DNA from: Magnetovibrio blakemorei
GTDB lineage: Bacteria > Pseudomonadota > Alphaproteobacteria > Rhodospirillales > Magnetovibrionaceae
Direction: 5' to 3'
DNA length: 57,729 nucleotides
Assembly (NCBI RefSeq): GCF_001746755.1
Contig: NZ_MCGG01000072.1
Span: forward strand, 1 to 57,729
Made by a program: the position numbers and the translations under genes
Shown: positions 4,563-47,935 of the stretch, in pieces
Position numbering within the stretch: position 1 is the first letter of the stretch
How the letters are laid out: every line of letters begins with the position of its first letter
The notes under the pieces: generated by a model
What the model was told of the DNA's origin: nothing
What the model saw: only the letters and a program-made list of their open reading frames with translations
The model's database searches: none

Positions 4563-4587
4563 ACTCAGAACCATTCAACCGAAGAAC

Positions 4588-5004: not shown

Positions 5005-5047
5005 AGTGGCCTCCTCTGAACGCATGAATGCAAATAATAAGATTGGC

Positions 5048-5065: not shown

Positions 5066-5075
5066 CCATCCCAGA

Positions 5076-5103: not shown

Positions 5104-5139
5104 CAAAAAGATAGAGCGCCTCTAAAAAGGCGCTCTATC
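5104..5139 (-). terminator. Rho-independent terminator of irr
   Basis: A perfect 12-bp stem (5110-5121 with 5128-5139) with a 6-nt loop is followed on the minus strand by a run of five T. It ends the irr transcript immediately before the rubrerythrin promoter. Confidence 0.85.
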
Positions 5140-5158
5140 CATTGAAATTAAATAGTTT

Positions 5159-5566
5159 TTAAGCTGCAGCCAAGCGAATCACAACGTCAATACCGGCAAT
5201 CTTTGTGCCTTCGGGAACGTTGGGGAGCTGTGACAGCTGGACCTGACCACCGGGAATGTCTTCCAAATAGCCTGAACCTTCATGGAAAAAATGGCCGTGC
5301 TCGGTGGTTGTGGTGTCGAAATACGACCGGGTCGGGTCAACCACGATTTCGCGCAAAAGACTTGCTTCCGTAAACTGGTGCAGGGTGTTGTAAACCGTGG
5401 CAAGCGAAACGCGAATGGCGCTATCTTGGGCTTCGGCGTGAAGCATTTCAGCCGTGACGTGGCGTGCGCCATTTTCAAACAACAGCTTGGCTAACGCCAA
5501 GCGTTGGCGGGTGGGCCGCAAACCTGCGGAGCGAAGCTGTTCGAGGACTTGTGCGTAAGGTCTCAT
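5159..5566 (-). CDS. irr: Irr-type Fur family transcriptional regulator
   Basis: A GGGAG five bases before the ATG at 5566 fixes the start (135 aa). The protein has the Fur winged helix (LRPTRQRLALAKLLF, then VSLATVYNTLHQF) followed by YFDTTTTEHGHFFHE, the histidine-rich segment typical of Irr. It lacks the extra cysteine zinc site of many Fur proteins. In alphaproteobacteria Irr senses haem status and represses or activates iron genes under iron limitation. Its position beside the rubrerythrin operon fits an iron/peroxide response; whether it controls that operon is not shown. Confidence 0.87.
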   Translation of the reverse strand: MRPYAQVLEQLRSAGLRPTRQRLALAKLLFENGARHVTAEMLHAEAQDSAIRVSLATVYNTLHQFTEASLLREIVVDPTRSYFDTTTTEHGHFFHEGSGYLEDIPGGQVQLSQLPNVPEGTKIAGIDVVIRLAAA

Positions 5567-5765
5567 GATAACTCCCATCTGACTGACGGCATTATGCTTG
5601 ATCCTGACCCCCCCTGGCCTTGACCCGGATCAAACACACTCCACTTTCTCAAAGTTCTAAACAGGTACCTTGAGATTATACTCATTGTAGTTCACTTAAG
5701 CATATATTGATTTACCACGCAAAAATAAAAAACCATTATTAATTTATGGTTATTTGCGGAACCAA

Positions 5766-7166
5766 TCAATCGCCCGTGACGATCCGATCCACCAACTGCT
5801 TAACGGTGGGAATAAAGCCGTTCGCATAAAATGGATCCTGAGCAAATTTGTAGGCATTGTGACCTGCAAACATCAAACTTTTGTCCAGATCACCGCCATG
5901 AGCCGCCAATTGCAGAGCTTTTTGAATGCAAAATGAGCGCGGGTCGGCGCGTTTGCCGGTGGTGCCTTCGGCGTTGTCAGCCCAATTGGAAAACCGGCAC
6001 TGGCTCAAACAACACATGCATTCCGCTTGGCTTTTCAATATTTCTTGAGATTTCTCCGGGGTCACAAACACCATGGTCTCGTCCGGCGTTTTCATGGCTT
6101 CGGACTGGCCCGCTGCAATCCAGGCTTGGGCGCGGGGCAGATCTTCAGGCTTCACATAATGAATGCGCTGGCGCGGGCCCAACGGCAATTCTGCCGTAAA
6201 GGGCGCTTCGCCGGCCTTGGCCCGGTATTCAATCTGGCGCTCGGAACGTTCCACCAAATCTTGCAGGAACGGATTTCGCACGGCGGACGAATAAAAGCCC
6301 GTCGGACTGAATTGATTTAGGTACACATCGCCATCTTTAAGCGTCAAAAGACGATCTTTCCACGCCTGCATGATCGGGCTTTCCTGGGTCAACAGCGGAC
6401 GGGTGCCAAATTGGAACGCCACCGGGCCCAGCTCGTCATTGTCCAACCAGTTTTCCCAGTCGCGCAGGAACCACACCCCGCCCGCCATGACGATGGGCAC
6501 GCGGTTCAAGCCATAGCCGTTCATCACCTTGCGCAAATCGACACAGCGCTGATACGGGTCTTGCGGCTCATTGGGGTTTTCGGCGTTGGACAGGCCATTA
6601 TGGCCGCCAGCCAGCCACGGGTCTTCGTAGACCACGCCGCCCAACAGCTCTGCATAATCTTTGTAAGAGCGCCGCCACAAGGCATTGAACGCACGCCCGG
6701 ACGAAACGATCGGATAATAATGAATGCCGTATTGCGCAGCGATTTCAGCCACTTTGTAAGGCATCCCCGCACCGCACGTGATGCCGTGGACCAATTCGCC
6801 CACTTGTTCCAAAACGCCGTGCAAAATCGGCACGGTGCCGCCGGCTTCCCACAACACGTTCATATGGATACGGCCTGCACCGCCGGAGACGTCGCGGGCA
6901 ATCTTCGCTTGTTCGATACCGCCTTGAATGGCGTAGGTTTTCAGCTCTTCAAACCGCTCAGAGCGGGTTTTTCCATGATAAACCTGAGGAATATAAGTGC
7001 CGTCTTCGGCATAACTGTCTGGGTTCACGCATGAAAATGTGCCAATGCCACCTGCCTTGGCCCACGCCCCGGCCGTTGTTCCATTGGACACGGCAACACC
7101 TTTGCCGCCTTCAACCAGGGGCAAGACTTCTTTTCCCGACATTTTAAAGGAATTGAGCGTTTTCAC
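5766..7166 (-). CDS. Nitronate-monooxygenase-like FMN enzyme with cysteine-rich tail
   Basis: This 466-aa protein starts at a GTG (7166) with GGAGG four bases before it. The barrel is of the nitronate monooxygenase / 2-nitropropane dioxygenase type (FMN-dependent), with glycine-rich phosphate-binding segments such as VMAGGVWFL and VAFQFGTRPLL. It differs from ordinary members by an N-terminal segment and a C-terminal extension carrying the cluster CMCCLSQC and a later SFCIQK. These could bind metal or an Fe-S centre. It stands alone downstream of pnp in transcription order. The exact substrate is unknown. Confidence 0.8.
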   Translation of the reverse strand: MKTLNSFKMSGKEVLPLVEGGKGVAVSNGTTAGAWAKAGGIGTFSCVNPDSYAEDGTYIPQVYHGKTRSERFEELKTYAIQGGIEQAKIARDVSGGAGRIHMNVLWEAGGTVPILHGVLEQVGELVHGITCGAGMPYKVAEIAAQYGIHYYPIVSSGRAFNALWRRSYKDYAELLGGVVYEDPWLAGGHNGLSNAENPNEPQDPYQRCVDLRKVMNGYGLNRVPIVMAGGVWFLRDWENWLDNDELGPVAFQFGTRPLLTQESPIMQAWKDRLLTLKDGDVYLNQFSPTGFYSSAVRNPFLQDLVERSERQIEYRAKAGEAPFTAELPLGPRQRIHYVKPEDLPRAQAWIAAGQSEAMKTPDETMVFVTPEKSQEILKSQAECMCCLSQCRFSNWADNAEGTTGKRADPRSFCIQKALQLAAHGGDLDKSLMFAGHNAYKFAQDPFYANGFIPTVKQLVDRIVTGD

Positions 7167-7269
7167 GGAACCTCCGGGTCATCGGCCCCTTCCTCTGAAG
7201 GGGGGTCACAGTATGAGCATACATAACTATGACAATAGAATGTGGTCACTTTTCGGCTATGTCCATAAA

Positions 7270-7306
7270 ATACGGGGCGGCCACCTTTATCATAGGAAGC
7301 CGCCCC
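7270..7306 (-). terminator. Terminator-like hairpin after pnp
   Basis: An 8-bp GC stem (7274-7281 with 7299-7306) lies just after the pnp stop on the minus strand, followed by a short T/A-rich tail (GTATTTTAT). It is a plausible end of the long translation operon, though the tail is weak. Confidence 0.5.
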
Positions 7307-7321
7307 ACACTTTTCTACGGA

Positions 7322-9457
7322 TCAATCGGCTTTTTGTTCCGGCACAATTTCGAGGCCAGTTTCTTGATCGACCACTTTCATGGACAGCTTCACTTTGCCG
7401 CGATCGTCGATTCCGATCAACTTGACCTTAATCTGCTGGCCTTCGCTCAGCACGTCGGTGACTTTTTCGACCCGGCGGTTGGCCAGTTCGGAAATGTGCA
7501 CCAGGCCATCGCGCGGACCCATGAAGTTCACAAACGCGCCAAAGTCCATGATTTTCACGACTTTGCCGTTATAGATCGCGCCGACTTCCGGCTCTGCCAC
7601 AATGCCTTTGACCCAATCGATGGCCGCTTGCATGGCGGTGGCGTCAACAGCGGCAACTTTCACGGTGCCGTCGTCGTCGAGATCAATTTTAGCGCCGGTG
7701 GTTTCGCAAATTTCGCGAATAACCTTGCCGCCCGCGCCGATAACGTCGCGGATTTTGTCTTTGTTGATCTTGAAGGTTTCGATGCGCGGTGCCGTCGCGG
7801 CAACGCTGTCACGGCCATGATCGATGGTGTGACCCATTTCGCCAAGGATGTGCATACGCCCAGCCTTCGCTTGATCCAAAGCATCTTCCATGATTTTCGG
7901 CGTGATGGACGTGATTTTGATGTCCATCTGCAAGGACGTGATGCCCTTTTCCGTACCGGCAACCTTGAAATCCATGTCGCCCAGGTGATCTTCATCACCC
8001 AAGATGTCCGACAAAATCGCAACGCCGGTTTCTTCTTTGATCAAGCCCATGGCGATACCCGCCACCGGACGCAGCAGCGGAACGCCCGCATCCATCAGCG
8101 CCAAAGAGGCCGAGCACACGGAAGCCATCGACGAAGAGCCGTTGGATTCGGTGATTTCAGACACCACGCGGATGGTGTAGGGGAAATCTTCCTTGGACGG
8201 CAACACCGGATGGATGGCACGCCAAGCGAGCTTGCCATGGCCGACTTCACGACGACCCGTTGCGCCAAAGCGCCCCGCTTCACCGACCGAGTAGGGCGGG
8301 AAGTTGTAGTGCAGCATGAAGTTGGTGCGATACGAACCTTCGAGGGAATCGATGATCTGCTCGTCCGAACCCGTGCCCAGCGTCGCAACGCCAATGGATT
8401 GGGTTTCGCCACGGGTGAACAACGCCGAACCGTGCGAACGCGGCAACACGCCGACTTCGGTCACGATGGGACGCACCGTCTTGGTGTCGCGGCCATCGAT
8501 GCGCACGCCGGTTTCCAGGATGGACAAACGCACAATGCTTTTTTCCACGGACTTAAAGGCATCGCCCAAAGTCGTTTCGAGCAATTCTTTGGCAAAATCG
8601 CCAGATTCGCTGACGGTTTGGGTAACGGTGTCTTTGACCGCGGCCACAGCGCCTTGACGTTCGAGCTTATCGGAAATCGTGTAAGCAGAACGCAAGCCAG
8701 CTTCGGCCAATTCTTTAACTTTGGCTTTGAGGCCATCGACGCCTTCGGGAGCACCGGGGATTTCCATCGGTTCTTTGGCACAATGTTCGGCCAATTCGAT
8801 GATGGCTTCGATCACCGGCTGGAAGCCTGTGTGACCAAAAGCCACCGCGCCCAACATCACTTCTTCGCTGAGCTCGGAAGCTTCGGATTCAACCATCAAC
8901 ACGCCGTCTTTGGTGCCCGCGACCACCAGGTCGAGATCGGATTCAGGCAACACGTCCAGCATCGGATTGAGCACGTATTCGCCGTTGATGCGGCCCACGC
9001 GTGCGCCACCGATGGGACCCATGAAGGGCGCACCGGAAATGCACAACGCCGCCGAGGTGCCGACCATGGCCACGATATCGGGATCGTTTTCCATGTCGTG
9101 CTGCATCACGGTGCAGATGACCTGAACTTCATTTTTGAAGCCTTTGGCGAACAACGGACGGATGGGGCGATCGATCAGGCGCGAGGTCAACGTTTCTTTT
9201 TCCGAAGGACGGCCTTCGCGCTTGAAGAAGCCACCCGGAATGCGACCGGCGGCATAGGTTTTTTCTTGGTAGTGAACGGACAAGGGGAAGAAGTCGATGC
9301 CGGGGCGTTCGGTCTTTTCCGCGACCACGGTGCACAACACTTTCGTTTCGCCGTAGGTCACCATCACGGCACCACTGGCCTGACGAGCGATCTTGCCGGT
9401 TTCCAGCACCAGCGTGCGGCCACCCCATTCGAGTTCTTTCCTGAATTCTTTAAACAT
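7322..9457 (-). CDS. pnp: Polyribonucleotide nucleotidyltransferase (PNPase)
   Basis: The start is the ATG at 9457 ([13 protein letters not shown]), with AAGGAAA upstream; 711 aa matches the family. It is a 3'-5' phosphorolytic exoribonuclease of the RNA degradosome. Visible in order are two RNase PH domains (about 10-145 and 310-470) around a helical domain, a KH domain with the GAGG loop ([15 protein letters not shown]) and a C-terminal S1 domain ([18 protein letters not shown]). It is last in the rimP-to-pnp operon, behind an rpsO terminator and a structured leader, so its level is probably set separately, as in other bacteria. Confidence 0.97.
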
Positions 9458-9480
9458 ACTTAGCTTTCCTTCATAAGAAT

Positions 9481-9550
9481 AAGGCAGGCCTATTGCTGTT
9501 TTGCCTACCAATGGTTCCTGCCTTGCCCGTCCCGGCCATCCGGTAACGGG
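9481..9550 (-). promoter_or_regulatory. Structured 5' leader of pnp
   Basis: Two hairpins lie between the rpsO terminator and pnp: an 8-bp stem (9481-9488 with 9517-9524) and a branched GC stem (9526-9535 with 9540-9550, containing CCGG paired with CCGG). In E. coli a double-stranded pnp leader is cut by RNase III and mediates autoregulation. The same is possible here but is inference. Confidence 0.4.
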
Positions 9551-9655
9551 TGCGACTATTCAGGCCATAACCCTTTGGGGTCCATACCCTGCAGGTCCTG
9601 GCCATCCAAGTCTTGGTCTTTTCATTCGGGCTGAAGTGTTAAATGCCGCGCGTCA

Positions 9656-9695
9656 ACAAAAAGACCAACGGCCAGCTCCTTTGGAGAGCTGGCCG
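9656..9695 (-). terminator. Rho-independent terminator after rpsO
   Basis: A 10-bp stem (9669-9678 with 9686-9695) and 7-nt loop are followed on the minus strand by TTGGTCTTTTT. It lies right after the rpsO stop, so it separates rpsO from pnp at least partly. Confidence 0.8.
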
Positions 9696-9703
9696 CAAGC
9701 ACC

Positions 9704-9973
9704 TTAACGGCGCAGGCCGAGGCGCTTGATCAGGGTCTGATAGCGCGTTTGGTCTTTCCGTTTGGTGTAATCCAAAAGGCGACGGCGCAGACCAACCATG
9801 ATCAGCAACCCGCGGCGCGAGTGGTGATCTTTTTTGTGGATCTTGAGATGTTCGGTCAAGTTCAAAATCCGTTCGGTGAGAACAGCGACTTGAACTTCGG
9901 GAGAACCGGTATCTTCCGGCTTAATGGCGTATTCTTTGATGAGCTCTTGTTTGCGCTCTGCGGTAATCGACAT
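9704..9973 (-). CDS. rpsO: 30S ribosomal protein S15
   Basis: The 89-aa length and sequence ([57 protein letters not shown]) are those of S15, which binds 16S rRNA at the three-way junction of the central domain and is a primary binder in 30S assembly. A GGAG site precedes the ATG. It follows truB closely in the translation operon and is followed by a terminator. Confidence 0.98.
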
Positions 9974-9988
9974 CGTGTACTCCTATAT

Positions 9989-10939
9989 TTAAAGATTAAG
10001 GACACGGATCGGACGGATTTCCCCGCCTTCGATCCTAGCCAGAGCCAGCGGCACAGTGCCCTCCATAACAACAACGGTTTGTCCAAACGCCACCTTCACA
10101 TCGGGTGATCGACTGAGAACCGCCATTGCCGGAGCGGGCATGCCGTGTCGCATGTTTCCGGCCTCGGCTTCCGTCAAGGCCAGCGCCGGGATGTCGTCCA
10201 GCGCGGTCATAATCGGAAGCACAGCTTCTTCGAGGCGCGCACTATGCCCCATGGACTCTAAGGAATCCAGCGAAATAACTTGGTTTTCGGTGAACGGACC
10301 GGCTTGGGTGCGACGCAAATCGGCAACATAGCCAACAGTCCCCAGGCGCGCCGCCAAATCGCGGGCTAACGACCTGATATAAGTACCTTTTCCACATTTT
10401 ACATCGATCACGGCCAGATCCGCCTCGGGCATCTCAACCAAGGTGATTTTGTCGATGTGCACGGCGCGGGACTTCATTTCCAGCGCGGGTTCGTCCCCAT
10501 TTTGCGCGTGGGCCAATTTTCGGGCCAGTTTATAGGCGCGCTCGCCATCAATTTTGAGGGCCGAGAAAATGGGAGGAACTTGTTCAATATCGCCTTCGAA
10601 CTCGGGCAACACGGCTTCGATTTCTTCTGCCGTCGGACGCACGTCGGAGGTTTCGGTGACTTGGCCTTCCGCATCCAAGGTGGTGCGGGCCTCGCCAAAC
10701 CGCACCCAGCAGCGATAGGCTTTTTGACCGTCCATCACAAACGACATGGTTTTGGTGGCTTCGCCCAGCGCAATGGGCAACACGCCGGTTGCCAGCGGGT
10801 CAAGGGTGCCGCCGTGGCCGGCCTTTTGCGCATTCAGCAAAAACCGCACCTTGCCCACCGCCTGGCTGGAACTCATGCCCTTGGGTTTGTCGAAAGCGAC
10901 CCAACCGTGAACCGGCAGGCCTTTGCGTTTACGCGCCAT
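9989..10939 (-). CDS. truB: tRNA pseudouridine(55) synthase
   Basis: The 316-aa protein converts U55 of the T-loop of tRNAs to pseudouridine. The catalytic aspartate lies in GGTLDPLATGVLPIALGEATK (about residues 39-59). The conserved KGTYIRSLARDL segment and a short C-terminal PUA-like region (ending IRPIRVLNL) are also present. The start is supported by the standard N-terminus (GWVAFDKPKGMSSSQAVGKV). It lies between rbfA and rpsO, the usual place. A palindromic repeat separates it from rbfA. Confidence 0.97.
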   Translation of the reverse strand: MARKRKGLPVHGWVAFDKPKGMSSSQAVGKVRFLLNAQKAGHGGTLDPLATGVLPIALGEATKTMSFVMDGQKAYRCWVRFGEARTTLDAEGQVTETSDVRPTAEEIEAVLPEFEGDIEQVPPIFSALKIDGERAYKLARKLAHAQNGDEPALEMKSRAVHIDKITLVEMPEADLAVIDVKCGKGTYIRSLARDLAARLGTVGYVADLRRTQAGPFTENQVISLDSLESMGHSARLEEAVLPIMTALDDIPALALTEAEAGNMRHGMPAPAMAVLSRSPDVKVAFGQTVVVMEGTVPLALARIEGGEIRPIRVLNL

Positions 10940-11015
10940 GAATTTTATCTCTGCCCCAAATGCGTGGGCCGCACGGTCGGCGGCAGGTCACAAACATCGC
11001 ATTAAATCGCTATAT

Positions 11016-11057
11016 GGATTGCGTCGTCATTGCGAGGAGCAACGCGACGAAGCAATC
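11016..11057. repeat. REP-like palindromic element between rbfA and truB
   Basis: A 13-bp inverted repeat with one mismatch (GGATTGCGTCGTC at 11016-11028 with GACGAAGCAATCC at 11045-11057) encloses the unit ATTGCGAGGAGCAACGC. The pattern resembles intergenic palindromes that occur in many copies in proteobacterial genomes. Only one copy was noticed in this window. It may form an RNA hairpin within the operon mRNA. Confidence 0.6.
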
Positions 11058-11070
11058 CAGAGCCGAACTC

Positions 11071-11514
11071 TTACTCTTCTTCATTCGCCCCATCGTCGAG
11101 CTCGTCGTCGTGATGAAGATCGCGCGCGACCTCTGGGCTGTGCAGCAACGCGTCGATGTGACCGGCAAAATCAAACGACGGGTCGTGTTCGAAATGCAAG
11201 ATCGGGGCGTAGCGCAAGTTCACCTTGCGCACCACTTCGTGGCGCAAGAATTTTGACGCCCGACGGAGCGCGTCGAGAACTTCTTTCACCGCTTCCCCAT
11301 CACCGCCGCCCAACGGCGTCACAAAACAGGTGGCGTGCTTCAAATCGGGACTGGTGCGCACTTCGGTGACGGTGACCGGCGTGCTCGCCAAGGTCGGATC
11401 GCGCAAATCGCCGCGCTCCAAAATCCATGCCAACGCATGGCGCACTTCTTCGCCCACGCGCAACTGGCGCTGGCTGGGGCCTTTGGCCGTATGATGGGTG
11501 CCGTGGCGGGTCAT
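11071..11514 (-). CDS. rbfA: Ribosome-binding factor A
   Basis: The start at 11514 ([28 protein letters not shown]) gives 147 aa; the frame is open upstream but without family similarity. RbfA is a KH-fold protein that helps late maturation of the 30S subunit and the 5' end of 16S rRNA. Recognisable parts are [33 protein letters not shown] and the tail with [16 protein letters not shown]. The C-terminus is extended and acidic. The ribosome-binding site is weak. It sits between infB and truB as expected. Confidence 0.95.
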
Positions 11515-11565
11515 GACGATTGCCCTATCGATTGCTCTGGCGGTGAATGCCTGAGCACATGTTCG

Positions 11566-11613
11566 CAGCGAAAACGCTGTGAGCTCCGCATCCGAACCGG
11601 TTGCGGAGCTCAC
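11566..11613 (-). other. Strong RNA hairpins between infB and rbfA
   Basis: A perfect 12-bp stem (11579-11590 with 11602-11613, 11-nt loop) is followed on the minus strand by a second 5-bp stem with an AAAA/TTTT loop (11566-11579). There is no terminal T-run, so this is more likely an mRNA processing or stability structure within the operon than a full terminator. Confidence 0.55.
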
Positions 11614-11623
11614 GACGTCTAAA

Positions 11624-14266
11624 TTATTCTTCAAGCTTGCGTGCCACTTCGATCACGTCGAAGCACTCAATGATATCGCCTTGTTTGATGTCATCGTAGT
11701 TGGCGAAAGACATCCCGCATTCGGTGCCTTCTTTCACTTCCTTCGCATCATCCTTAAAGCGTTTGAGCTGGCTCAACTCGCCTTCATGAATAACCACATC
11801 GTTGCGCAGCAAGCGAACCTTGGAGCCGCGCTTGACCATGCCGTCGGTGACCATACAGCCGGCAACCTTGCCAACCTTGGACACCGCAAACACTTCGCGA
11901 ATTTGGGCGTAGCCGAGGAATTGTTCTTTCAACGTCGGCGCCAACATACCGCTCAACGCGTTGCGCATGTCGTCAATGGCGTCATAGATGATCGAGTAGT
12001 AGCGAATATCGACGCCATCGCGCTTGGCCAAATCACGGGCCTGCGCATTGGCGCGCACGTTGAAGCCCATGATGAAGCCCCCCGATGCGCGGGCCAAAAT
12101 GACGTCCGATTCGTTGATGCCGCCGACCGCACCGTGGAGAATTTGCGCTTTGACTTCGTCGGTGCCCATTTTTTCCAAGGCCGCAGAAATGGCTTCCAAA
12201 GACCCGTGCACGTCGGCTTTGACGACGATCGGCAAGGTTTGGGCTTCGCCTTCTTTGATCTTTTCGAACATTTGTTCCAAGGTTCCGCGACGTCCCGCAG
12301 CAGAACGCAGATCACGTTTTTTGCGGGTGCGGTATTCGGTGACTTCACGGGCGCGCGCTTCGTCGACGACCACAACCACTTCATCGCCTGCGTCAGGGGT
12401 GCCGTTGAGGCCGAGAATTTCCACCGGCATCCCAGGCACGGCTTCTTCGATTTGCTGGCCGTGATCATCGATCAAGGCGCGCACACGGCCCCATTCGGAA
12501 CCTGCAACAAAGATATCGCCGCGCCGCAAGGTGCCGCGTTGAATAAGCGCGGTGGCAACCGAGCCACGGCCCTGTTCAACTTTGGCTTCAACAATAACGC
12601 CTTCGGCAGGACGGTTCGGGTTGGCCTTAAGATCAAGGATTTCCGCCTGCAACAAAATCGCTTCTTCCAGCTTGTCCAAGCCGGTGCGCGATTTCGCCGA
12701 AACGTCCACGGCCAACACTTCGCCGCCCATTTCTTCCACCACGATTTCGTGCTGCAACAACTGTTGGCGCACTTTGCCCGGGTTGGCGTCGGGCTTGTCG
12801 CATTTGTTGATGGCGACGATGATCGGCACGTTTGCGGCCTTGGCGTGGTGAATGGCTTCAATGGTTTGTGGCATCACGCTGTCGTCAGCTGCCACCACCA
12901 AAATAACGATATCGGTGACTTTGGCGCCACGTGCACGCATGTCGGTGAACGCGGCGTGACCCGGCGTATCGACGAAGGTGATCTTCGCGCCACTTTCCAG
13001 TCTCACCTGATAGGCACCGATGTGCTGGGTGATGCCGCCCGCTTCGCCGCCCGCCACATCGGTGGTGCGCAGCGCATCAAGCAAGGACGTTTTACCATGA
13101 TCGACGTGACCCATAACGGTGACCACCGGAGGACGGCGGATCATGTCCGCATCCTCATCAACGATCCCGCCGAGGCCGGTTTCAACGTCGGCGTCGGAAA
13201 CGCGTTGCAGGTTATGACCGAATTCCGTCACAACCAGTTCCGCAGTGTCGGCGTCGATGATTTGATTGACGGTCGCCATGACCCCCATCTTCATCAGTTC
13301 ACGCACCACGTCCACGCCCCGCTCGGCCATACGATTGGCCAGCTCTTGCACGGTGATGGTTTCGGGAACGACCACGTCACGGACGATTTTCTTGTTTTCC
13401 GCGCGCGCCATTTGCTGGCGCTGTTTTTCTTTTTCACGCTTGCGTTTGACCGACGCCAAAGACCGCTGACGTTCTTCGGTCGCGCCTTCGCTCAAAGCCG
13501 ATGAAATGGTCAGCTTGCCCGCACGACGGCGTTCATCGCCACGGCTGCGCGACGGCGGCACAACGGCACCTTCGCCCTTGTTGTCGCCTTTGGCATCACC
13601 TTTCGGCTTTTTGACTTTTTTGGCTTTTTTGGCGTCTTCTTTGGCTTTTTCCGGATCGGGCAAAGAGGCCGGATCAACGTCTTGGGAACGCGGTGCCGGG
13701 CGCGCAGGAGCCGCACGCACCGGGCCGCTCGCAGCCGCCGGAGCCTCGTTAACAACGGGCTCAGCGCTCTGGCTTCCCTCGGCTTTCGCCTGGGCCGCTT
13801 CGGCCGCGGCTTGTTTGGCTTTTTCAGCTTCTTCGATGGCGCGACGTTCGGCTTCTTCGGCAGCACGCTTTTGTTCTTCGATGGCGCGGATCTTGGACCC
13901 TTCAAGCGCCTTGGCGCGGGCTTCGCGTTCGCTGTCGGTCAGATTGTCGTCATGCTGAACGGGCGGCGTCGGCGGGGTCACATGAGCCGGCTGCTGAACG
14001 GGCGCCGCAGGGGCCTCGATCGGGGCAAAGGGCGACGGTTCGCGAACCTGCGCCATCTTGCCGTTGGCGTCCTGAGCGTAGGTGCGTTTTTTCTTCACCT
14101 CAACCGCGACCATTTTGGAGCGGCCATGCGAAAAACTCTGCTTCACCGTCCCGGCGTCAACAGTCTTTTTCAGCTCGAGCGTGCCGGGCCGCTTAAGAGT
14201 CAGCGGTTTTTTTCCGGTTTCGCCTGCTTCGCTGCCGTTTGTCTTGCTGTCGTTTGTATCGCTCAT
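11624..14266 (-). CDS. infB: Translation initiation factor IF-2
   Basis: The 880-aa GTPase positions initiator fMet-tRNA on the 30S subunit and promotes 50S joining. A long N-terminal part (about 1-300) is rich in Ala, Lys, Glu and Pro with a charged coiled-coil stretch, as in alphaproteobacterial IF-2. The G domain has GHVDHGKT at 386-393, DTPGHAAF near 435 and NKCDKP near 488. Domains II, III and the fMet-tRNA-binding C-terminal domain follow ([11 protein letters not shown] near the end). It begins two bases after the ylxR stop, in the canonical nusA operon order. Confidence 0.98.
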
Positions 14267-39195: not shown

Positions 39196-41979
39196 TTATT
39201 GGGTTTGTTTGACCTTGGCGATGGGTTCACCTTTGGCCGTGCCGATCGCTTGCATGACGGTCTTTTTCAGAGCCGCAATTTTTGATGGCGAATCGACTTT
39301 TAGGCCAAACACGTCGCGCACATAAAACACGTCGACGGCGCGTTCGCCATAAGTCGAAATGTGCGCAGACGTGATTTGCAAACCAAAGTCCGTGAGCGCC
39401 CGGGTGACGTCGTACAAGAATCCCTGACGGTTTCGCCCGTTCACTTCAATGACCGTCGCAGACTGCGAGGCTTCATTGTTGACCAGCACGCGGGGCGCCA
39501 CTTCAAACACGTTGGTGCGCGACGGCAAACGGCGAATGCGTTCCTCCGCCAATTCACGCGCCGGACGCAATCGTCCGGTCAAGGCCGCTTCGATGCGGTC
39601 TTTAAGACGTTTGATTTTTTCCGGAGCGGCAATGGCGTGCTCTTCACCGTCTTGAACCCAAAACGTATCCAACGCCATGCCGTTGCCCAAGGTGGTGATC
39701 TTTGCATCCACGACGTTTGCCCCCGACAACGACATCGCACCGGCGATAGACGCAAACAAACCCGGATGATCGAGGGTATGAATCAGCACTTCGGTGACAT
39801 CAATGTTTTCCACCGCACGGGTTTCCAAATACAGTTTTGTGTCGCTGTTGTGGGCATTGAGAACGATCTCGGCGTGATGCGCCAATTCTTCTGCCGGATA
39901 AGACAAAAAGTAATTGGCGTGGCCTTGCGCCAAATACCAATCGACATCGGCGTCAGACCAATGATCCAGTTTATCGATGAGCTTTTTGCGCACCCGATCA
40001 GCCCGCGCTTCGCGGCGCTGGGTCGGCAACCCGCCGGTCATGAGTTCTTGCGCGCTGTAATACAGTTCACGCAACAATGAGGCCTTCCAATTGTTCCACA
40101 CCGTCGGTCCCACCGCGCGGGTGTCGGCGACCGTCAGGATCAACAGCAAACGCAATCGTTCCGGCGACTGCACCTGGGCGACAAAATCCTTGATGGTTTT
40201 GGGATCGTCCAAATCGCGTTTATAGGCGGTGCGGTTCATGTCCAAATGGCGCAGCACCAACCATGCAACCGTTTCCGTTTCCCATTCATTCAAACCAAAT
40301 CGGGGACACAATTCGGTGGCGACTTCCGCCCCCACGACGCTGTGATCGCCGCCCCGTCCCTTGGCGATGTCATGCAGCAAAACCGCAACGTACAAGACCC
40401 GGCGCGACTGCAAATCTTTGATGACTTCGGTGCTGAGCGGATGGTCTTTCGCCAACAGACCTTGTTCAATTTTCCACAAAATGTCGATGGCGCGAATGGT
40501 GTGCTCATCGACCGTATAGACGTGATACATGTCATATTGCATCTGCGCCACGACCCGCCCGAAGTCCGGCAAAAAACGCCCAAACACACCCGATTCGTTC
40601 AGCCGCATCAAACCCCGCATGGGACCTTTGATATTGGTCAACAGCTCCAAAAACAACGCGTTGGCCACCGGGTCCTTTTGCACCCTCTTGTTGATTCGCT
40701 TGAGGTTCTTTTGCACCAGGCGCAACGCTTCGGGGTGAATGTCGAGATCATATTTTTCGGCCTCGACAAACAACCGCAACAAGTTCACCGGATCGTCTTT
40801 AAACACATCTTCGTGTTCAACGGTCAGACGCCCGCCGTCCACTTTAAATCCGGCGGATATCCGACGGCGGAAATTAAACGACGGAAACGACAGCATCGGT
40901 TTTTTGGTGTGTTGATCTTCCAGCACCGCACAGATCACGCGGGTCAAATCGCCGACGTCTTTGGCCACCAAAAAATAGTGCTTCATGAACCGCTCAACCG
41001 CGCTGACGCCTTCGCGGTCGGTGTAGTCCATGCGCTGGGCCAAATCGTTTTGCACGTTGAAGCTGATGGTTTCATCGGGGCGACCCGCCAGATAATGCAG
41101 ATGGCAGCGCACCGTCCACAGGAACCTTTGCGCTTTGATGAAACGCCGGGCGTCGGATTTATCCAACACACCCTTGTCCACCAACCCGGCAATGTCATTG
41201 ACGCGGTACAAAAATTTAGCGATCCAAAACAGCGTCTGCAAATCGCGCAAACCGCCTTTACCGTCTTTCAAGTTGGGTTCCAACACGTAGCGCGAATCGC
41301 CCATGCGGTCATGGCGCAGATCGCGTTCTTCCAACTTGGCGCGGACAAATTCCGCCTCTTGTCCCTTGATGGCGTCGCGTTCAAAGCGGGCTTCAAAATC
41401 CGTAAACAAGTCATGATTGCCACAAATCCAACGGGCTTCCAGCAAGCTGGTGGAAATGGTGATGTCGGACTTCGCCATCTTCACGGCTTCTTCAATGCTG
41501 CGGGTCGCGTGACCAACCTTCAGGCCCATGTCCCACAACATGTAGAGCATCCATTCCACCGCGGTGCTGCTCGTCGGGTTCGCCTTCTTGGGCAACAAAA
41601 ACATGATGTCCAAGTCGGACTGGGGTGAAATCTCGGCACGCCCATAGCCCCCGGTCGCGATCAAGCCCATGGCGTCGTCAGGCAAGACGTAAACATGGGT
41701 GATGGTGAATTCGTGCAGGGTGCGGATCAGCTGATCGAGCAAATAGGCCCCCGCCAGCAGGGTGGCCGCGCCCGAGGCCTCTTTTGCTTCAAAGCGACGT
41801 TGAATTTCTGCCCGCCCGTTTTCAAGGCCGTCTTTAAACACTTTGAGGATTTTACCGCGCACCTTGGGCTTTTTGAGATCAATACCTTCACCGCTGGCGG
41901 CATTGGCGATTTCGCACAACGCCAACATAAACGTCTTTCGGTTAATGACCGCGCGCGGGTTTTTGATCTTCAAAAGCAT
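39196..41979 (-). CDS. glnD: [Protein-PII] uridylyltransferase/uridylyl-removing enzyme
   Basis: The 927-aa nitrogen sensor modifies PII proteins in response to glutamine. In order: nucleotidyltransferase domain (TGGYGRAEISPQSDLDIMFL near 107-126), a PII-UTase helical part, an HD hydrolase domain (VAVLLHDIAKGRGGDHS near 515-531), and two C-terminal ACT domains (LIHTLDHPGLFASIAGAMSLSGANVVDAKI; EVNGRNRQGFLYDVTRAL). Length is typical. It is divergent from the PLP-like operon with a 188-bp gap. Confidence 0.97.
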   Translation of the reverse strand: MLLKIKNPRAVINRKTFMLALCEIANAASGEGIDLKKPKVRGKILKVFKDGLENGRAEIQRRFEAKEASGAATLLAGAYLLDQLIRTLHEFTITHVYVLPDDAMGLIATGGYGRAEISPQSDLDIMFLLPKKANPTSSTAVEWMLYMLWDMGLKVGHATRSIEEAVKMAKSDITISTSLLEARWICGNHDLFTDFEARFERDAIKGQEAEFVRAKLEERDLRHDRMGDSRYVLEPNLKDGKGGLRDLQTLFWIAKFLYRVNDIAGLVDKGVLDKSDARRFIKAQRFLWTVRCHLHYLAGRPDETISFNVQNDLAQRMDYTDREGVSAVERFMKHYFLVAKDVGDLTRVICAVLEDQHTKKPMLSFPSFNFRRRISAGFKVDGGRLTVEHEDVFKDDPVNLLRLFVEAEKYDLDIHPEALRLVQKNLKRINKRVQKDPVANALFLELLTNIKGPMRGLMRLNESGVFGRFLPDFGRVVAQMQYDMYHVYTVDEHTIRAIDILWKIEQGLLAKDHPLSTEVIKDLQSRRVLYVAVLLHDIAKGRGGDHSVVGAEVATELCPRFGLNEWETETVAWLVLRHLDMNRTAYKRDLDDPKTIKDFVAQVQSPERLRLLLILTVADTRAVGPTVWNNWKASLLRELYYSAQELMTGGLPTQRREARADRVRKKLIDKLDHWSDADVDWYLAQGHANYFLSYPAEELAHHAEIVLNAHNSDTKLYLETRAVENIDVTEVLIHTLDHPGLFASIAGAMSLSGANVVDAKITTLGNGMALDTFWVQDGEEHAIAAPEKIKRLKDRIEAALTGRLRPARELAEERIRRLPSRTNVFEVAPRVLVNNEASQSATVIEVNGRNRQGFLYDVTRALTDFGLQITSAHISTYGERAVDVFYVRDVFGLKVDSPSKIAALKKTVMQAIGTAKGEPIAKVKQTQ

Positions 41980-42167
41980 CGTGTTTCCTGTGTGCTCGTC
42001 TCAACAAAAGGATAGATTGAGTCTTTGGGGTATATAGGAATTGCGCCCGTGAAACGAGCGGCATTTCTTAAAGTGGAGCTTTCCCGTCCAACTCGACTTG
42101 TTTCAGGGCGCGCTTTTGGTTCTAATGTAACCTCACTTGTTTTTTGTACATCCCTTTTAGGCTCGTT

Positions 42168-43673
42168 ATGTCCAACACCCCCGGCTTGAGCGAATGCAAT
42201 CATCTGAAAGCTCTGGCGAGACGCCTCCAAACCGCCGTGCATTCTGCTGGGGGTGACGAAGCCTTTTTGCGCGATTGGTTCGCCCAAGCCAACACCTTGG
42301 CGAGCAGCCCCACCCTGGAAACGCCTGAAGGCGACCGCGCCCTGGACGTCCTCGCCTTAAATTTGCGCAATCGCTGGTTACAGTACGCCTACGCCCAGTC
42401 GGGGTCCTATTTGATGACGCCACCCCAGGGGCAACGCAAGCTTTTGCCGGTGGGCGAACGCATCGGTTACCCCTATGACCGCTGGATCAAACCGCGCGTG
42501 CTGGAAGAACGTCTCAACGCCCAGCGCCCGGCACCCCGAGGTTGGAGCGGGCGCGCCATCGTGTTCGCCAACGGCATGGCCGCGCTGAGCGCCACCTTGC
42601 AAATGTATCGCAGCCAAACCCACAAAATGTGGAAGCGCCCGCCGGGGCCTTTATCGCTGCATTGGTTTGGCGGCTATTTTGAAATCATCAAATTGCTGCA
42701 ATTGGTCTGTGATGATTTTTTCCACGGCCGTAAACATGCCAAGCAACACGATCTCTGCCGGGTCGTTGAACAGGGCAGCGCCGATCTGGTGTTGATCGAA
42801 CCCGTCGCCGCAGACATATCCCTGGCCGTTTTTGATTTGGACGCCTTCATCGCTGCGTGGCAGCGGCGCAAGGTCAAACGACCTTGCACCATCGTCATCG
42901 ATGCCTCGCTCAGCGGTCCGGTGTTTCCGGTTGAAAAATTGTGTCAATCGTTGCGCGCCGACCCGCCCGCCATGGTCATCATTATGCGCTCCGGCCTGAA
43001 ACTGGACCAACAGGGTTTGGAGTTCGCCAATGTTGGCTTGGTACACGTGTGGCTGCCCGACACCCCCAACGACACAAAGCGTCTGGAGCGCATCGAAGAG
43101 CGCTTCAAAATCACCCGCACAACTTTGGGCGTGGGCGTGTCGCAAGACGAATACGCCGCGCTCACCGTGCCTTTTTTTCTCGACCAGCCCAGCCTTGTTC
43201 AACACACTGAACACGTGTTCGCCAACAACCGCCGTTTCGCCCAGGCCCTGGCGCACACCGTCAAAGCCAATAAAGGCCTGATCGCGGAAATTTCCCACCC
43301 GTGTCTGGGACCGTCGCGCGCTCTGGACTGGGCACAGGCCCCCTTTGTCACGGTGCGCTACCGAGGCGACGAAAACGACGCCCGAGCGTTTATGCGCACT
43401 ATGTTGGAATTTGAAGCGAGAGCCCGCAAGCTGAGCTTCGTTCCCGGCTCAAGCTTTGGCTTTCGCGGCCACCGCTTCGAGATGGGCTTTTCCGGTGACT
43501 TAAAACACACCACCTTGCGGGTTGCCATGGGTGCCCGTGTTGGGCCCTCCATTGAGGGCATCGTCAAGCTGTTCCAGGATTTGTGCGCTTATCCGGACTT
43601 TGCCGCGCTCCGCCAAGCCTATCCTCAACTGGCCAAAGACAAGCCCAAAGACCGTGTCGATGAAGAATCATGA
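42168..43673 (+). CDS. Unusual PLP-dependent fold-type I protein (Cys/Met-enzyme-like)
   Basis: The ATG at 42168 gives 501 aa. Landmarks follow the order of cystathionine gamma-synthase-like enzymes: FANGMAALSA at about 133-142 (cofactor phosphate loop), LIEPVAAD near 209-216, an aspartate in VIDASLSGP (D245, ring nitrogen), and a lysine in MRSGLKLDQQG (K278, the likely Schiff-base residue). A C-terminal small domain ends with LRVAMGAR. Overall similarity to known members is weak and there is an extra N-terminal region of about 120 residues. Its stop overlaps the next gene (ATGA), and an ETHE1-type gene follows, so a role in sulfur or persulfide chemistry is inferred. Activity is unproven. 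Confidence 0.65.
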   Translation: MSNTPGLSECNHLKALARRLQTAVHSAGGDEAFLRDWFAQANTLASSPTLETPEGDRALDVLALNLRNRWLQYAYAQSGSYLMTPPQGQRKLLPVGERIGYPYDRWIKPRVLEERLNAQRPAPRGWSGRAIVFANGMAALSATLQMYRSQTHKMWKRPPGPLSLHWFGGYFEIIKLLQLVCDDFFHGRKHAKQHDLCRVVEQGSADLVLIEPVAADISLAVFDLDAFIAAWQRRKVKRPCTIVIDASLSGPVFPVEKLCQSLRADPPAMVIIMRSGLKLDQQGLEFANVGLVHVWLPDTPNDTKRLERIEERFKITRTTLGVGVSQDEYAALTVPFFLDQPSLVQHTEHVFANNRRFAQALAHTVKANKGLIAEISHPCLGPSRALDWAQAPFVTVRYRGDENDARAFMRTMLEFEARARKLSFVPGSSFGFRGHRFEMGFSGDLKHTTLRVAMGARVGPSIEGIVKLFQDLCAYPDFAALRQAYPQLAKDKPKDRVDEES

Positions 43674-44323
43674 CCACCTCGACTCAAGCCTTGCCTGTTT
43701 TATACAGCTTTCGCCGCTGCCCGTTTGCCATGCGCGCACGCTTAGGACTCTGGGCCAGCGGCATGCCTTATGTGCTGCGTGAAGTGGTGCTGGCGAACAA
43801 GCCCCAGACCATGTTGACCCTGTCGCCCAAGGGCACGGTGCCGGTGTTACACCTTCCCAGCGGCGAAGTGATTGACGAAAGCCTCGACATAATGGCCTGG
43901 GCTTTGACCGAACATGATCCGCTGGGTTGGCGAGACCACCGAGACGACGACCTGATCCGAGCGTGCGATACGGATTTTAAATTTCATCTGGATCGCTACA
44001 AATACGCCACCCGCTATGACAACAGTGATCCCTTAGAACACCGCAGCTTGGGCGAAGCGTTTGTGTTGGGCCTCGACCAACGCCTCACTGCGCAACCTTT
44101 TTTAGGCGGCCTCCACCCACGCCTCACCGACATGGCCATCGCCCCGTTCGTGCGCCAATTTGCCTTGCCGGACTGGGAATGGTTTTTTCACACCCCATAT
44201 GTACACGTACAAGGCTGGCTCAACGCTTTTATCAGCAGCGCCGCGTTTGCCCAGGTGATGGACAAACGCCCCCCTTGGCGCGATGGCGACGAAGACACGC
44301 TGGTCAACCCACCCCCACACTGA
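43670..44323 (+). CDS. Glutathione S-transferase-like protein
   Basis: The 217-aa protein has a thioredoxin-fold N-terminus with a single cysteine in FRRCPFAMRARLGL (C17), as in omega-type GSTs or glutaredoxin-2-like proteins, then GTVPVLHLPSGEVIDESLDIM, the glutathione-binding cis-Pro and ES region. A helical C-terminal domain follows. It overlaps the upstream PLP-like gene by 4 bp and is 12 bases before the persulfide dioxygenase gene. A role in handling glutathione persulfide or mixed disulfides is inferred from this context. Confidence 0.85.
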   Translation: MTTSTQALPVLYSFRRCPFAMRARLGLWASGMPYVLREVVLANKPQTMLTLSPKGTVPVLHLPSGEVIDESLDIMAWALTEHDPLGWRDHRDDDLIRACDTDFKFHLDRYKYATRYDNSDPLEHRSLGEAFVLGLDQRLTAQPFLGGLHPRLTDMAIAPFVRQFALPDWEWFFHTPYVHVQGWLNAFISSAAFAQVMDKRPPWRDGDEDTLVNPPPH

Positions 44324-44335
44324 GGATTTTGAACC

Positions 44336-45088
44336 GTGCTGTTTCGTCAATTGTTTGAGCCACAATCGTCCACCTACACATATCTTTTGGGCTGTGAAGA
44401 GACCCGCAAGGCGGTGCTGATTGACCCGGTTCTGGAAACCTTTTCCCGCGATTTGGACGTGGTGCAAGAGCTTGGCCTGGAGCTGGCGCTCACCTTGGAC
44501 ACCCACATCCACGCCGACCACTTAACGTCCGCGTTAAAACTCAAAAGCCTGACCGGCTGTTTGATTGCCGTGCCCCAAGCGGCGGGCGTCGCCTGCGCCG
44601 ATGTGCAGGTCACCGACAAAGCGCCCATCGAAGTCGGCTATTTGACAATCGACGCCCTGTTCACCCCCGGCCACACCGACCACCACCATTGTTACCACTT
44701 TGACGCCGGAAACACGTCGGCGGTGCTCAGCGGGGATTGCTTGCTGATCGACGGATGCGGCCGCACCGATTTTCAGGGCGGCTCCTCAACGGACCTTTAC
44801 CGTTCCATTCACAGCAAGCTATTCACACTTGCAGACGACACCTTGATCTATCCCGGTCATGATTATCACGGCCGCTTTGTATCCACCGTCGCCCAAGAAC
44901 GCACCCGCAATCCGCGCCTCAAAGACGGCACCGATGTTGAGGCCTTCACCAAAATCATGACCGAGTTGGATTTGGCGTATCCCAAAAAGATGGATTTGGC
45001 CGTACCCGCCAACATGCTGTGCGGGCAATGCCCCGAGCATCTGCCGGCGGATTTAGAACGGCTGTGTGAGATCAGTCATCAGGGCTGA
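44336..45088 (+). CDS. Persulfide dioxygenase (ETHE1/SdoA-like)
   Basis: The 250-aa metallo-beta-lactamase-fold protein has the ETHE1 hallmarks: [12 protein letters not shown] (HxHxDH), [32 protein letters not shown] and [10 protein letters not shown]. These bind one iron and recognise glutathione persulfide, which the family oxidises to sulfite and glutathione. The start is GTG with GAGGA upstream. It is the third gene of a compact operon. It converges with mutS and overlaps its 3' end by 17 bp. Confidence 0.92.
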
Positions 45089-47750
45089 GGGTTTTCAGGC
45101 GATAAAGAAAATCCAACGCTTCACGCGGCGTCATTTCGTCGGGCAACACGTTTTTCACCGCCACTTCGACTTCGGAAGCTTTGCGCGGGCCGGATGCGGG
45201 TGTGGCTGATTGCGCTGGCGCGTGGGAAAACAGCGGCAAGTCGTCGGCCAGTTTGGTGACGGTGCTCGATTGCTCCCCCGCTTCCAGGGATTTCAAAATC
45301 TGTTCGGCGCGCGCCACCACGGCGGCGGGAAGACCCGCCAGCTTGCCCACATGAATGCCGTAGGAGCGGTCCGCAGCCCCTGCGCCGACTTCGTGCAAAA
45401 ACACCACTTCGCCCTGCCATTCTTTGACCTTCATGGCATGGCACGAAAGCCCCGACAGCTTGGCTTGCAGAGCGGTGAGTTCGTGATAGTGGGTGGCGAA
45501 CAACGCCCGACACGTGTTCACTTCGTGCAGGTGTTCGATCACCGCCCAGGCGATGGACAGGCCGTCGAAGGTCGAGGTGCCGCGCCCGATTTCGTCCAAA
45601 ATCACCAACGCGCGCGGTCCCGCTTGATTCAAGATGGCTGCGGTTTCAACCATTTCCACCATGAACGTGGAGCGTCCACGAGCCAAATCGTCGGCCGCGC
45701 CCACGCGTGAAAACAACCGATCGACAACGCCGATGCGGGCGCGTTCTGCGGGCACGAAGGAGCCCATCTGCGCCAACACGGCGATCAGCGCGTTTTGCCG
45801 CAAAAAGGTCGATTTACCCGCCATGTTGGGCCCGGTCAGCAACCACAAGCGGCCCAGGTCGTCGTCTTGACGGCAATCGTTGGCGACGAACTTTTCGCCT
45901 GCACCCGCTTCCAGCGCCGCTTCGACCACCGGATGACGGCCTTGGATGATTTCAAAATCGACACTGTCGTCCACAATGGGCCGGGTGAGGCGGCGGCGCT
46001 GGGCCAATTCCGCCAACCCCATGGCCACGTCCAATTGGGCCAAGGCGCGGGCCGCCAAGGCAATGGCGTCGCCATCCGCAATGACCTGAGCACACAACTG
46101 GTCGAAGATTTCCAGTTCCAGCACCACGCCCCCGTCCGCGGCGCGGGCAATCTTGCTTTCCAGCTCCGACAGCTCAACGGTGGAAAACCGTACAACGTTG
46201 GCCATGGTCTGGCGGTGAATGTACGGCCCTTCCGCGCCCATCAGCTTGTCGGCGTGCTTGGCGGAGACTTCGATGAAGTAGCCCAGCACGTTGTTGTGCT
46301 TCACCTTCAGCGCGGCAAGCCCGGTATGTTTTTGATAATCGCCCTGCAAGCCCGCGATCAAGCGGCGGCTTTCGTCGCGCATCATGCGCAATTCATCCAG
46401 GTCGGGGCGATAGCCGGGACGGATAAAGCCACCGTCGCGCGCCTGGATCGGCAATTCATCGGCCAACGCGGTTCCCAGCGCCCCCACCAAAGCGCCGTGT
46501 GCACCCAATTCGTCCAAGCTTTTGGTGAGGCCCTGGGGAATGTCTTTGGCCCCAAAAAGATCGCGCACGACCGCCGTCAATGCCAAGCCGGTTTGCACGG
46601 CGGCCAAATCCCGCGGTCCCCCCCGGCCCAAGGTCAGGCGCGAGAGCGCGCGTTCCAAATCGGGGCTGTGCGCCAGCTGGGCGCGCACATCTTCGCGCAG
46701 ACGCGTTTGCGTCAAACAAAACTGCACATCGCAAAAGCGATTTTCAATTAAAGCGACATCGGTCAACGGCGCTGCCAAGCGGTCACTCAACAAGCGCGCC
46801 CCGGCCCCCGTTATGGTCAAATCGATGGCCGCCAACAGCGACCCCTTGCGCGCCCCGGTTAAGGTTTGCGACAGCTCCAGATTGCGCCGGGTCGCGGCGT
46901 CGATTTCCATCACCCCGCCCGCCGAGATCCGCACCGGCGGCGATATGCGCGGCAGTTTGCCTTTTTGCGTCAGCTCCACATAATCCAGCAAGCCGCCCGC
47001 CGCCGCCACTTCGGCGCGGCTGAACCCGCCAAAGGCATCCAAGGTCGCCACATGGAAAACGGCCTGCAAGCGTTTTGCGCCGTTGGTGCTGTCGAATCGC
47101 GATGCCGGTTGCGGCGTCAACGCATCGCGCCAGTCATCCAACACATGCAGATAGGCGTCGCGGTTCAGCAAACTGTCCGGATGCAGAACTTCGCCCGGGT
47201 TGAGCCGCGCCAACTGCGCGCCGATGTGTTCGGGTGATGAGCTTTGGGTGAAAAACTGCCCGGTGGACACATCGATCCACGCCAGCCCCAATTCGCCCTG
47301 GGCCTCGGCGATGGCGGCCAGATAATTGTTGGACCGCGCGTCCAGCAGCGAATCTTCGGTGATGGTGCCCGGCGTTACCACCCGCACCACGGCGCGCTTT
47401 ACCACCGACTTGGCACCGCGCTTTTTGGCTTCTGCCGGGTCTTCGGTTTGTTCGCACACGGCGACGCGAAAGCCCTTGCGGATCAGCTTGGACAGATATT
47501 GTTCGTGGGCGTGCACCGGAACCCCACACATGGGGATATCGTCACCGTTGTGCTTGCCGCGTTTGGTCAGAGTGATGTCCAGCGCGCGCGAGGCTTGTTC
47601 GGCGTCCGAAAAAAACATCTCGTAAAAATCGCCCATGCGGTAAAACAGCAGCGCGTCGGGATGGTCTTGTTTAATCGTCAAAAATTGCGCCATCATCGGC
47701 GTGACCGAGGATGGATCTTCAGGCGCGGGTGGAGGCGAGAGCTGGCTCAT
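45072..47750 (-). CDS. mutS: DNA mismatch repair protein MutS
   Basis: The ATG at 47750 gives 892 aa; a further upstream TTG is unlikely. MutS recognises mismatches and recruits MutL. The mismatch-binding [12 protein letters not shown] (Phe-x-Glu) is at the N-terminus, Walker A is [15 protein letters not shown], Walker B is [16 protein letters not shown], and a C-terminal tail ends in [15 protein letters not shown]. Length is typical. It is divergent from a plus-strand group starting at 47.9 kb. Confidence 0.97.
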
Positions 47751-47935
47751 CTTGGCTTTATCGAAATCCGGCGTTAAAAGAAGCCACACCTTACCCAAGC
47801 CGAGCCCCGAAGATCAACACATCATCCCAAGGGGCAATGGGAAAGACAATCACCAAAGCAACTTGGCGTGAGGCCCGAAGGGGCCTAACATAGTCAAGAT
47901 TTTACATAAATACCCGATCTGCCTGGAGGCCACCT

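Follow-up and report, generated by a model that had tools for sequence, protein, structure and literature searches.

The stretch of DNA analysed here, the 57,729 nucleotides of Magnetovibrio blakemorei contig NZ_MCGG01000072.1 (the window; its genome is designated G000), carries three closely packed genes, the first of which, gene 1, is our main subject:

42168..43673, plus strand: gene 1, predicted diverged cystathionine gamma-synthase (CGS)-like fold-type-I pyridoxal 5'-phosphate (PLP) enzyme of 501 aa; open reading frame (ORF) from ATG at 42168 to TGA at 43673
43670..44323, plus strand: gene 2, Cys-type glutathione transferase (GST) with an R-C-P-F motif, 217 aa; ORF, ATG start
44336..45088, plus strand: gene 3, ETHE1-like persulfide dioxygenase of metallo-beta-lactamase fold, 250 aa; ORF, GTG start

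Gene 1 and the GST gene overlap by four bases (ATGA), and gene 3 starts 12 bases downstream of the GST stop codon. ORF inspection confirmed the three ORFs of the initial annotation, including this overlap and the 12-base gap, and the start of gene 1 at 42168 matches the starts of its nearest homologues. The interest of the locus sits in the enzyme family of gene 1, which is patchy, fast-diverging and without a Pfam model, rather than in the persulfide pathway that the initial annotation had drawn across the three genes.

Genes 2 and 3 are readily placed. The GST matches Pfam GST_N_2 (2.4e-15), and its best PDB matches are DHAR1 (1.5e-9) and GST omega-1 (1.8e-9). Along its full length gene 3 resembles both human ETHE1 and bacterial relatives (8zbd, 2e-88; human ETHE1 4chl, 1.9e-66), and its stretches GCGRTDFQ, THxHADH and HDYHG align with 4chl (1.4e-66 in that comparison), confirming the ETHE1 motifs reported earlier; we saw nothing unusual relative to known ETHE1 persulfide dioxygenases. 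Our assignment of individual residues to metal or glutathione binding is presumptive. Gene 3 is ETHE1-like, and glutathione persulfide oxidation is its predicted activity.

Fold and conserved residues of gene 1

Taken one at a time, searches of Pfam, PHROGs and PDB sequences leave gene 1 unplaced: Pfam returns 0 families at E<=10, and the locus is absent among the G000 matches to PF01053, the family of cystathionine gamma-synthase, cystathionine gamma-lyase and methionine gamma-lyase. The NCBIfam cystathionine gamma-synthase family model PRK07049 matches residues 90-253 at 1.4e-4 (20.7 bits vs a cut-off of 504), a search of PDB sequences has a putative cystathionine gamma-synthase as its top match (E 0.28), and a profile built from 12 homologues reaches the Cys/Met PLP enzyme 5ijg at 0.0057.

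Structure prediction was more informative. The AlphaFold2 model, built from a 12-row alignment, has a mean pLDDT of 88.8 and a pTM of 0.90, and in it an N-terminal extension forms three helices (5-26, 31-45 and 53-78). Foldseek returned 615 PDB matches at E<=0.001, including 6ovg (E 2.1e-15), an entry titled without an enzyme name that we take to be an engineered human cystathionine gamma-lyase. The 50 matches listed comprise cystathionine gamma-lyase, methionine gamma-lyase, O-acetylhomoserine sulfhydrylase and cystathionine gamma-synthase, at 14-19% identity and a TM-score by target of 0.60-0.69; CalE6 (4u1t/4u2h) scores 0.65-0.69 by target.

For comparison at the residue level we built a PF01053 profile from the 14 of 24 loci in related genomes that gave a usable ORF. 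In a local profile-profile alignment (E 6.7e-4, probability 27%), Y103/R105, the GM loop and D245 fall opposite their PF01053 counterparts; a forced global alignment (E 1.4e-6, probability 81%) placed K278 opposite the lysine of the PF01053 S-A-T-K motif. Conservation was counted over relatives from a wider survey, in which 84,980 species genomes were scanned with two peptide patterns, a procedure that misses more diverged members, yielding 69 loci to which a plasmid collection added three (72 in total); the counts use 66 rows, with the fragment loci L037, L065, L076 and L099 and the three plasmid proteins left out. Three sites predicted to contact the cofactor are nearly invariant:

42474..42482, plus strand: codons of Y103-D-R105, which lines up with the Y-x-R arm in the PF01053 profile; Y103 in 65/66 rows, R105 in 65/66
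42900..42902, plus strand: codon of D245, predicted partner of the PLP pyridine nitrogen and the D of the PF01053 D-N-T motif; 66/66 rows
42999..43001, plus strand: codon of K278, predicted PLP Schiff-base lysine (S275-G-L-K278); 65/66 rows, aligned with PF01053 in the global alignment only

In the model, D245 ends strand 241-245 and K278 comes after strand 269-275; the Y-x-R arm presumably binds the PLP phosphate from the neighbouring subunit. S275, E211, Q281, R433 and R436 are each present in all 66 rows, P212 in 63, and the phosphate loop is more variable (G136 in 59 of 66, M137 in 32 of 66). Position 451 is divided between Arg (35 rows, the window protein among them) and Lys (31 rows). 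The GM of the loop, E211-P212, D245 and K278 are kept in homologues down to 33% identity.

The initial annotation had recognised a cystathionine gamma-lyase/synthase-type PLP fold from a GMAA loop (G136 M137), E211-P212, D245 and K278, together with an extra N-terminal region. Conservation over the 66 rows bears out the landmarks, the extension is real in that it is modelled as three helices, and the fold is supported by the model, the Foldseek matches, the profiles and the conserved residues; structure prediction, which had been suggested as a check, gave fold-type I matches, with K278 and D245 conserved and aligned with the cofactor residues of PF01053. Gene 1 shares with that family fold type I, the Y-x-R arm, the GM phosphate loop, the pyridine-nitrogen Asp and the S-x-x-K lysine, and differs from it in its low identity to the listed structures, its lack of a Pfam match, its three-helix N-terminal extension and two motifs of its own family, RSGLKLDQxGLE and SFGFRxxR. 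On this evidence we take gene 1 to be a functional PLP enzyme with the cystathionine gamma-synthase fold that lies outside every family model tested.

Conservation of the three-gene arrangement

In the pathway of the initial annotation, as we spell it out, gene 1 would be a cystathionine gamma-lyase-like enzyme making cysteine persulfide or hydrogen sulfide, the GST would hand it over to glutathione and ETHE1 would oxidise it. The fold of gene 1, the ETHE1-like nature of gene 3 and the overlap of genes 1 and 2 speak for such a pathway, and conserved co-occurrence of the three genes had been set beforehand as its test. The trio lies between two minus-strand genes, whose names we presume from their translations:

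39196-41979, minus strand: glnD, flanking gene (translation)
45072-47798, minus strand: mutS, flanking gene (translation)

Among 60 related genomes gene 1 is present in 12, and a sample of 289 genomes from the class has it in 3; the genome of the window is included in both counts. Within the window's family it is present in 11 of 18 genomes, at the glnD-mutS site in nine of the 11 (in G014 on two contigs) and elsewhere in G003 and G007. G000, G002 and G005 hold all three genes between glnD and mutS, the remaining point in favour of a common pathway; among the genomes examined, the unbroken run of gene 1, GST and ETHE1 occurs in the window only, an opposite-strand gene standing between GST and ETHE1 in G002 and G005. 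Elsewhere the partners dissociate. G004 has gene 1 and the GST, and gene 3 finds just distant metallo-beta-lactamase matches and no close ETHE1 anywhere in that genome; in G003 the glnD-mutS site is occupied by GST and ETHE1, and gene 1 lies in another place; G001 (67% complete) has glnD and the GST without gene 1; and all five genomes of genus g4 have gene 1 at the site without GST or ETHE1, matches of GST and ETHE1 type lying elsewhere in four of the five. Outside the genus, the neighbours of GST or ETHE1 relatives were compared at ten loci (L121-L129 and L131), and none of them matches a window protein. Identity within the genus is 46-58% for gene 1, 58-64% for the GST, 67-71% for ETHE1 and 76-84% for mutS and glnD.

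The neighbourhood of the three genes is therefore not kept in the family, as judged from G001 and the 11 genomes that carry gene 1, and with the linkage broken at the glnD-mutS site in near relatives we reject the proposed persulfide operon as a conserved unit. Since several near relatives have gene 1 without GST/ETHE1 at this site, or the reverse, gene order gives a single conserved pathway no support, although it is compatible with one in the window species alone. Canonical PF01053 enzymes are encoded in the window genome as well, with three matches scoring over 350 bits, and elsewhere the partners of the gene 1 family are decarboxylase-like and peptide-cluster genes. We regard the persulfide pathway as very improbable; the GST and ETHE1 genes are neighbours of gene 1, not demonstrated partners.

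As a separate observation, three genus mates carry near GST and ETHE1 an opposite-strand small protein with the motif YKSP(T/S)CGCC (L022:7618-8079, L023:7480-7995 and L120:3900-4382), which we assume to be DUF411-like; it does not lie between genes 1-3 in the window.

A recurrent type III PLP partner

Across the survey, a gene for a type III PLP decarboxylase-like protein lies near the gene 1 relative in 24 of the 66 rows of the family tree (from which the four fragment loci were dropped) and in 27 of the 72 loci, the three plasmid records included; a lysA-type neighbour of L045 was set aside from this count. Neighbour calls were mechanical, so that some ORFs are shadows, and contig ends shorten the flanks of several loci (e.g. 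L040, L057 and L065), in which any partner lying past the end would escape notice. The partnered loci span actinobacteria, Magnetococcales, Rhodospirillales, gammaproteobacteria, one Paracoccaceae record, Rhodobacter and Bradyrhizobium records and three Bacillota plasmids. The lysine (K54) and the G-x-x-C-x-x-x-D motif are kept in twelve rows of partners. When eight partners were scanned against NCBIfam, nspC was the best model for two and lysA for six, all under the cut-offs; the nspC matches are those of L036 (3e-71, 240 bits) and L041 (1e-77, 261 bits), vs a cut-off of 409.

The window clade (six rows) has no partner and stands on the tree beside L046, likewise without one, and L039 and L049, which have one; the next rows out, L036, L038, L044 and L048, are all partnered. 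This nesting among partnered clades makes it likely that the window clade lost its type III partner, as far as the tree can tell.

Position 451 follows the same division, with Lys in 22 of the 24 partnered rows and Arg in 33 of the 42 others. Arg451, present throughout the window clade, is presumably the usual carboxylate-binding arginine, and the unpartnered loci inspected show no constant neighbour; both would suit a role in metabolism or detoxification that has nothing to do with peptides, that of a lyase (gamma or beta) or replacement enzyme whose substrate is a free small amino acid, with the peptide-cluster branch recruited independently. The nesting of the window clade among partnered clades argues against this, as does the rate at which gene 1 diverges, which exceeds that of glnD and mutS and is unlike that of a housekeeping enzyme. 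We consider such a free-amino-acid enzyme a real possibility, albeit a doubtful one.

Peptide-cluster contexts and fusions in the family

An arginase-family gene is found in 12 of the 72 loci, all twelve with a type III gene, and each of the twelve holds an Arg-containing precursor-like ORF. The motif (G/M)GSRP(R/V) occurs in an ORF of 27-134 aa in ten of them, as GGSRPR in nine, and GGSRPR is absent from all ORFs of at least 20 aa in the other 60 loci. The remaining two arginase loci, L096 and L097, have Arg-rich repeat ORFs upstream of the arginase-family gene, each with the look of a multi-core precursor: L097:3537-4418 contains eight EVRHRRP units (11 with variants) and L096:1543-2154 eight RLKDRMRAISALS units. 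In three arginase-family proteins scanned with Pfam (E<=0.01) Arginase was the sole match, and a PqqD/RRE-like N-terminus was judged by eye.

One arginase locus, L156, lies on a plasmid of Mammaliicoccus sciuri, where the gene order is short peptide, type III, arginase, type III, CGS-like, ABC and GNAT. The short peptide (L156:5365-5448) has 27 aa and ends in MGGSRPRLK, a core motif common to this plasmid and the actinobacterial clusters, so that the cluster type spans two phyla.

Other contexts also resemble peptide clusters. In L068 (marine gammaproteobacterium HTCC2148), consecutive genes at 4416-12474 are HprK-like, CxxCxxCC-like, CGS-like, type III PLP and lasso-cyclase-like, the last matching at 4.7e-112, under the cut-off, with an ORF on the opposite strand that resembles an ABC transporter by eye. 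L157 and L158 combine ThiF-like and type III genes, the type III gene of L157 lying in two frames, with short upstream ORFs picked by eye, and GNAT genes occur in L156, L158 and L051. Gene 1 itself we do not file as a peptide-tailoring enzyme; its family contains such candidates.

Fusions are a further feature of the family. Four Magnetococcales loci encode proteins of 1072-1105 aa that start with the CGS-like domain of gene 1 and continue for more than 500 residues beyond it:

L041:3188-6475, fusion protein
L042:3732-7019, fusion protein
L043:3331-6648, fusion protein
L047:1290-4508, fusion protein

In L041 and L047 the added part is a protein kinase (3.6e-42 and 1.3e-39) and an FGE-sulfatase domain (7.6e-53 and 5.3e-57); a fifth fusion, in L040, ends after its kinase-like part, near the contig end. 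A CxxCxxCC (YkgJ-type) domain is fused to the type III PLP protein in L041:1422-3158, just under the Pfam cut-off, and in L056:2677-4329, by motif.

Giant RTX-type genes stand beside the CGS-like/type III pair in seven loci; in L031 and L047 they adjoin a CGS-like gene for which no partner was seen. With both proteobacterial partners scanned scoring best with nspC, this association would suit a pair that makes free carboxy-polyamines and polyamines (norspermidine-like) for surface or biofilm roles, rather than groups bound to peptides. The nspC scores lie far under the cut-off, however, and such a role would leave the GSRP peptides and the arginase, lasso or ThiF genes unexplained, so that we think polyamine synthesis improbable.

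The giant proteins encoded upstream of the CGS-like gene in L036, L038, L041-L044, L047 and L048 share a C-terminus (ITLxDGSxLxFDxIExIxW-like), presumably a secretion signal, from which that of the L031 giant protein differs. We considered the giant protein as a substrate of the CGS-like enzyme; with its C-terminus resembling a secretion signal and L031 differing, it is no more than a tentative candidate.

A possible PLP route to aminopropylation

Our preferred reading, offered tentatively as quite possible but short of probable, is that the CGS-like/type III pair is a PLP route to aminopropylation and that the window enzyme performs the same kind of gamma-replacement on some acceptor. The CGS-like enzyme would form a vinylglycine-type ketimine from an activated homoserine, to which an amine (an ornithine side chain, lysine or a diamine) would add to give a 3-amino-3-carboxypropyl group; in the arginase clusters, arginase would supply the acceptor amine of ornithine. 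The type III enzyme would then decarboxylate the 3-amino-3-carboxypropyl group to aminopropyl. The window enzyme is likened to this chemistry on account of the family PLP residues it keeps and the Arg451 it carries, and it would most likely carry out gamma-replacement on some acceptor and halt at the amino-acid stage, its genome being without a coupled decarboxylase. The fold is predicted, the conserved residues, partner genes and precursor-like ORFs are observed, and the reaction, donor and acceptor are what we propose.

A stronger form of aminopropylation by the pair would make the gene 1 family a SAM (S-adenosylmethionine)-free PLP aminocarboxypropyl transferase that, together with the type III decarboxylase, writes polyamine-like aminopropyl side chains on ribosomal peptides, using in the arginase clusters ornithine derived from the Arg of GGSRPR; the window gene 1 would then be an orphaned member whose acceptor, be it a peptide, a protein or a small molecule, is left with the 3-amino-3-carboxypropyl group. 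In this full form we judge the proposal unlikely.

Evidence from the window genome bears on these proposals. No type III PLP gene was found beside gene 1 in the window flanks, and a single type III protein query at 1e-10 gave no match in G000 and, in the window's genus, matched only in G005 (3.7e-11). A profile search of G000 found two type III proteins, both on other contigs than gene 1: the first is lysA (484 bits vs a cut-off of 297.9), and the second has lysA as its best model, below the cut-off, and reads by eye as ornithine decarboxylase (ODC)-like.

Several observations weigh against the aminopropylation route. The window genome has lysA and an ODC-like protein as its type III proteins, and the latter has a counterpart in G006, which is without gene 1. 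No precursor-like peptide was recognised by eye among the small ORFs at 41900-42250, a segment that takes in the gap between glnD and gene 1, the rest of the genome not having been searched. In the tree, 42 of the 66 rows, the whole window clade included, have no type III partner in their flanks, and the partner label is clustered, requiring 8 changes vs 19.6 when shuffled, so that the loci are not independent; the split of the family by R451 and K451 means that its branches may differ in substrates. The local PF01053 profile match carries a probability of just 27%, and in the alignment F167 takes the place of the PLP-stacking Tyr of the PF01053 family (presumably Y114 of methionine gamma-lyase), a position with Tyr in one of 66 rows; three residues past F167, position 170 is Tyr in 65 of 66 rows. 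Finally, we know of no reaction for any member of the gene 1 family.

Whatever the reaction, a PLP-fold family that Pfam misses occurs in several peptide-cluster contexts (arginase with GGSRPR peptides, lasso-like, and ThiF/microcin-like) as well as in fusions with protein kinase and FGE-type domains. If the aminopropylation route is true, bacteria have a SAM-free route to aminopropylated peptides, and the gene 1 family is a handle for mining clusters that make them.

Comparison with known systems

Our literature search, whose coverage left out most subscription journals, did not find the CGS-like/type III pair or GSRP-type peptides described. The loline enzyme LolC is similar in its proposed gamma-substitution and different in belonging to a fungal small-molecule pathway, in which LolD is, we assume, an ODC-type decarboxylase; the likeness is one of description. 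PMC10367076 covers the addition of a nucleophile to a vinylglycine ketimine by CGS-type enzymes, naming CGS, CndF, Fub7, AnkD and Mur24 and, as a putative example with proline as the nucleophile, LolC; the reaction proposed for LolC in PMC4274035 is a gamma-substitution that links proline with homoserine.

A close parallel for the peptide clusters is microcin C, in which, according to PMC10491745 and PMC12250964, MccD adds a 3-amino-3-carboxypropyl group and the PLP domain of MccE decarboxylates it, the reverse order of steps not being ruled out in the former. PMC12250964 notes in a general way that ThiF-type peptide genes of Enterococcus and Streptococcus have decarboxylases and PLP-dependent enzymes nearby, so that this co-occurrence is already partly in print. 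The microcin-C-like context is absent from the window genome. Some relatives of gene 1 share with the microcin C system a peptide cluster with a ThiF-type enzyme and genes resembling a type III PLP decarboxylase, GNAT and a transporter; the enzyme donating the 3-amino-3-carboxypropyl group in microcin C is the SAM-dependent MccD, in place of which these relatives would have a CGS-like PLP enzyme. The presence of a CGS-like enzyme with an nspC/lysA-type decarboxylase and GNAT, twice with ThiF, in peptide clusters fits the two steps of microcin C, with PLP replacing SAM.

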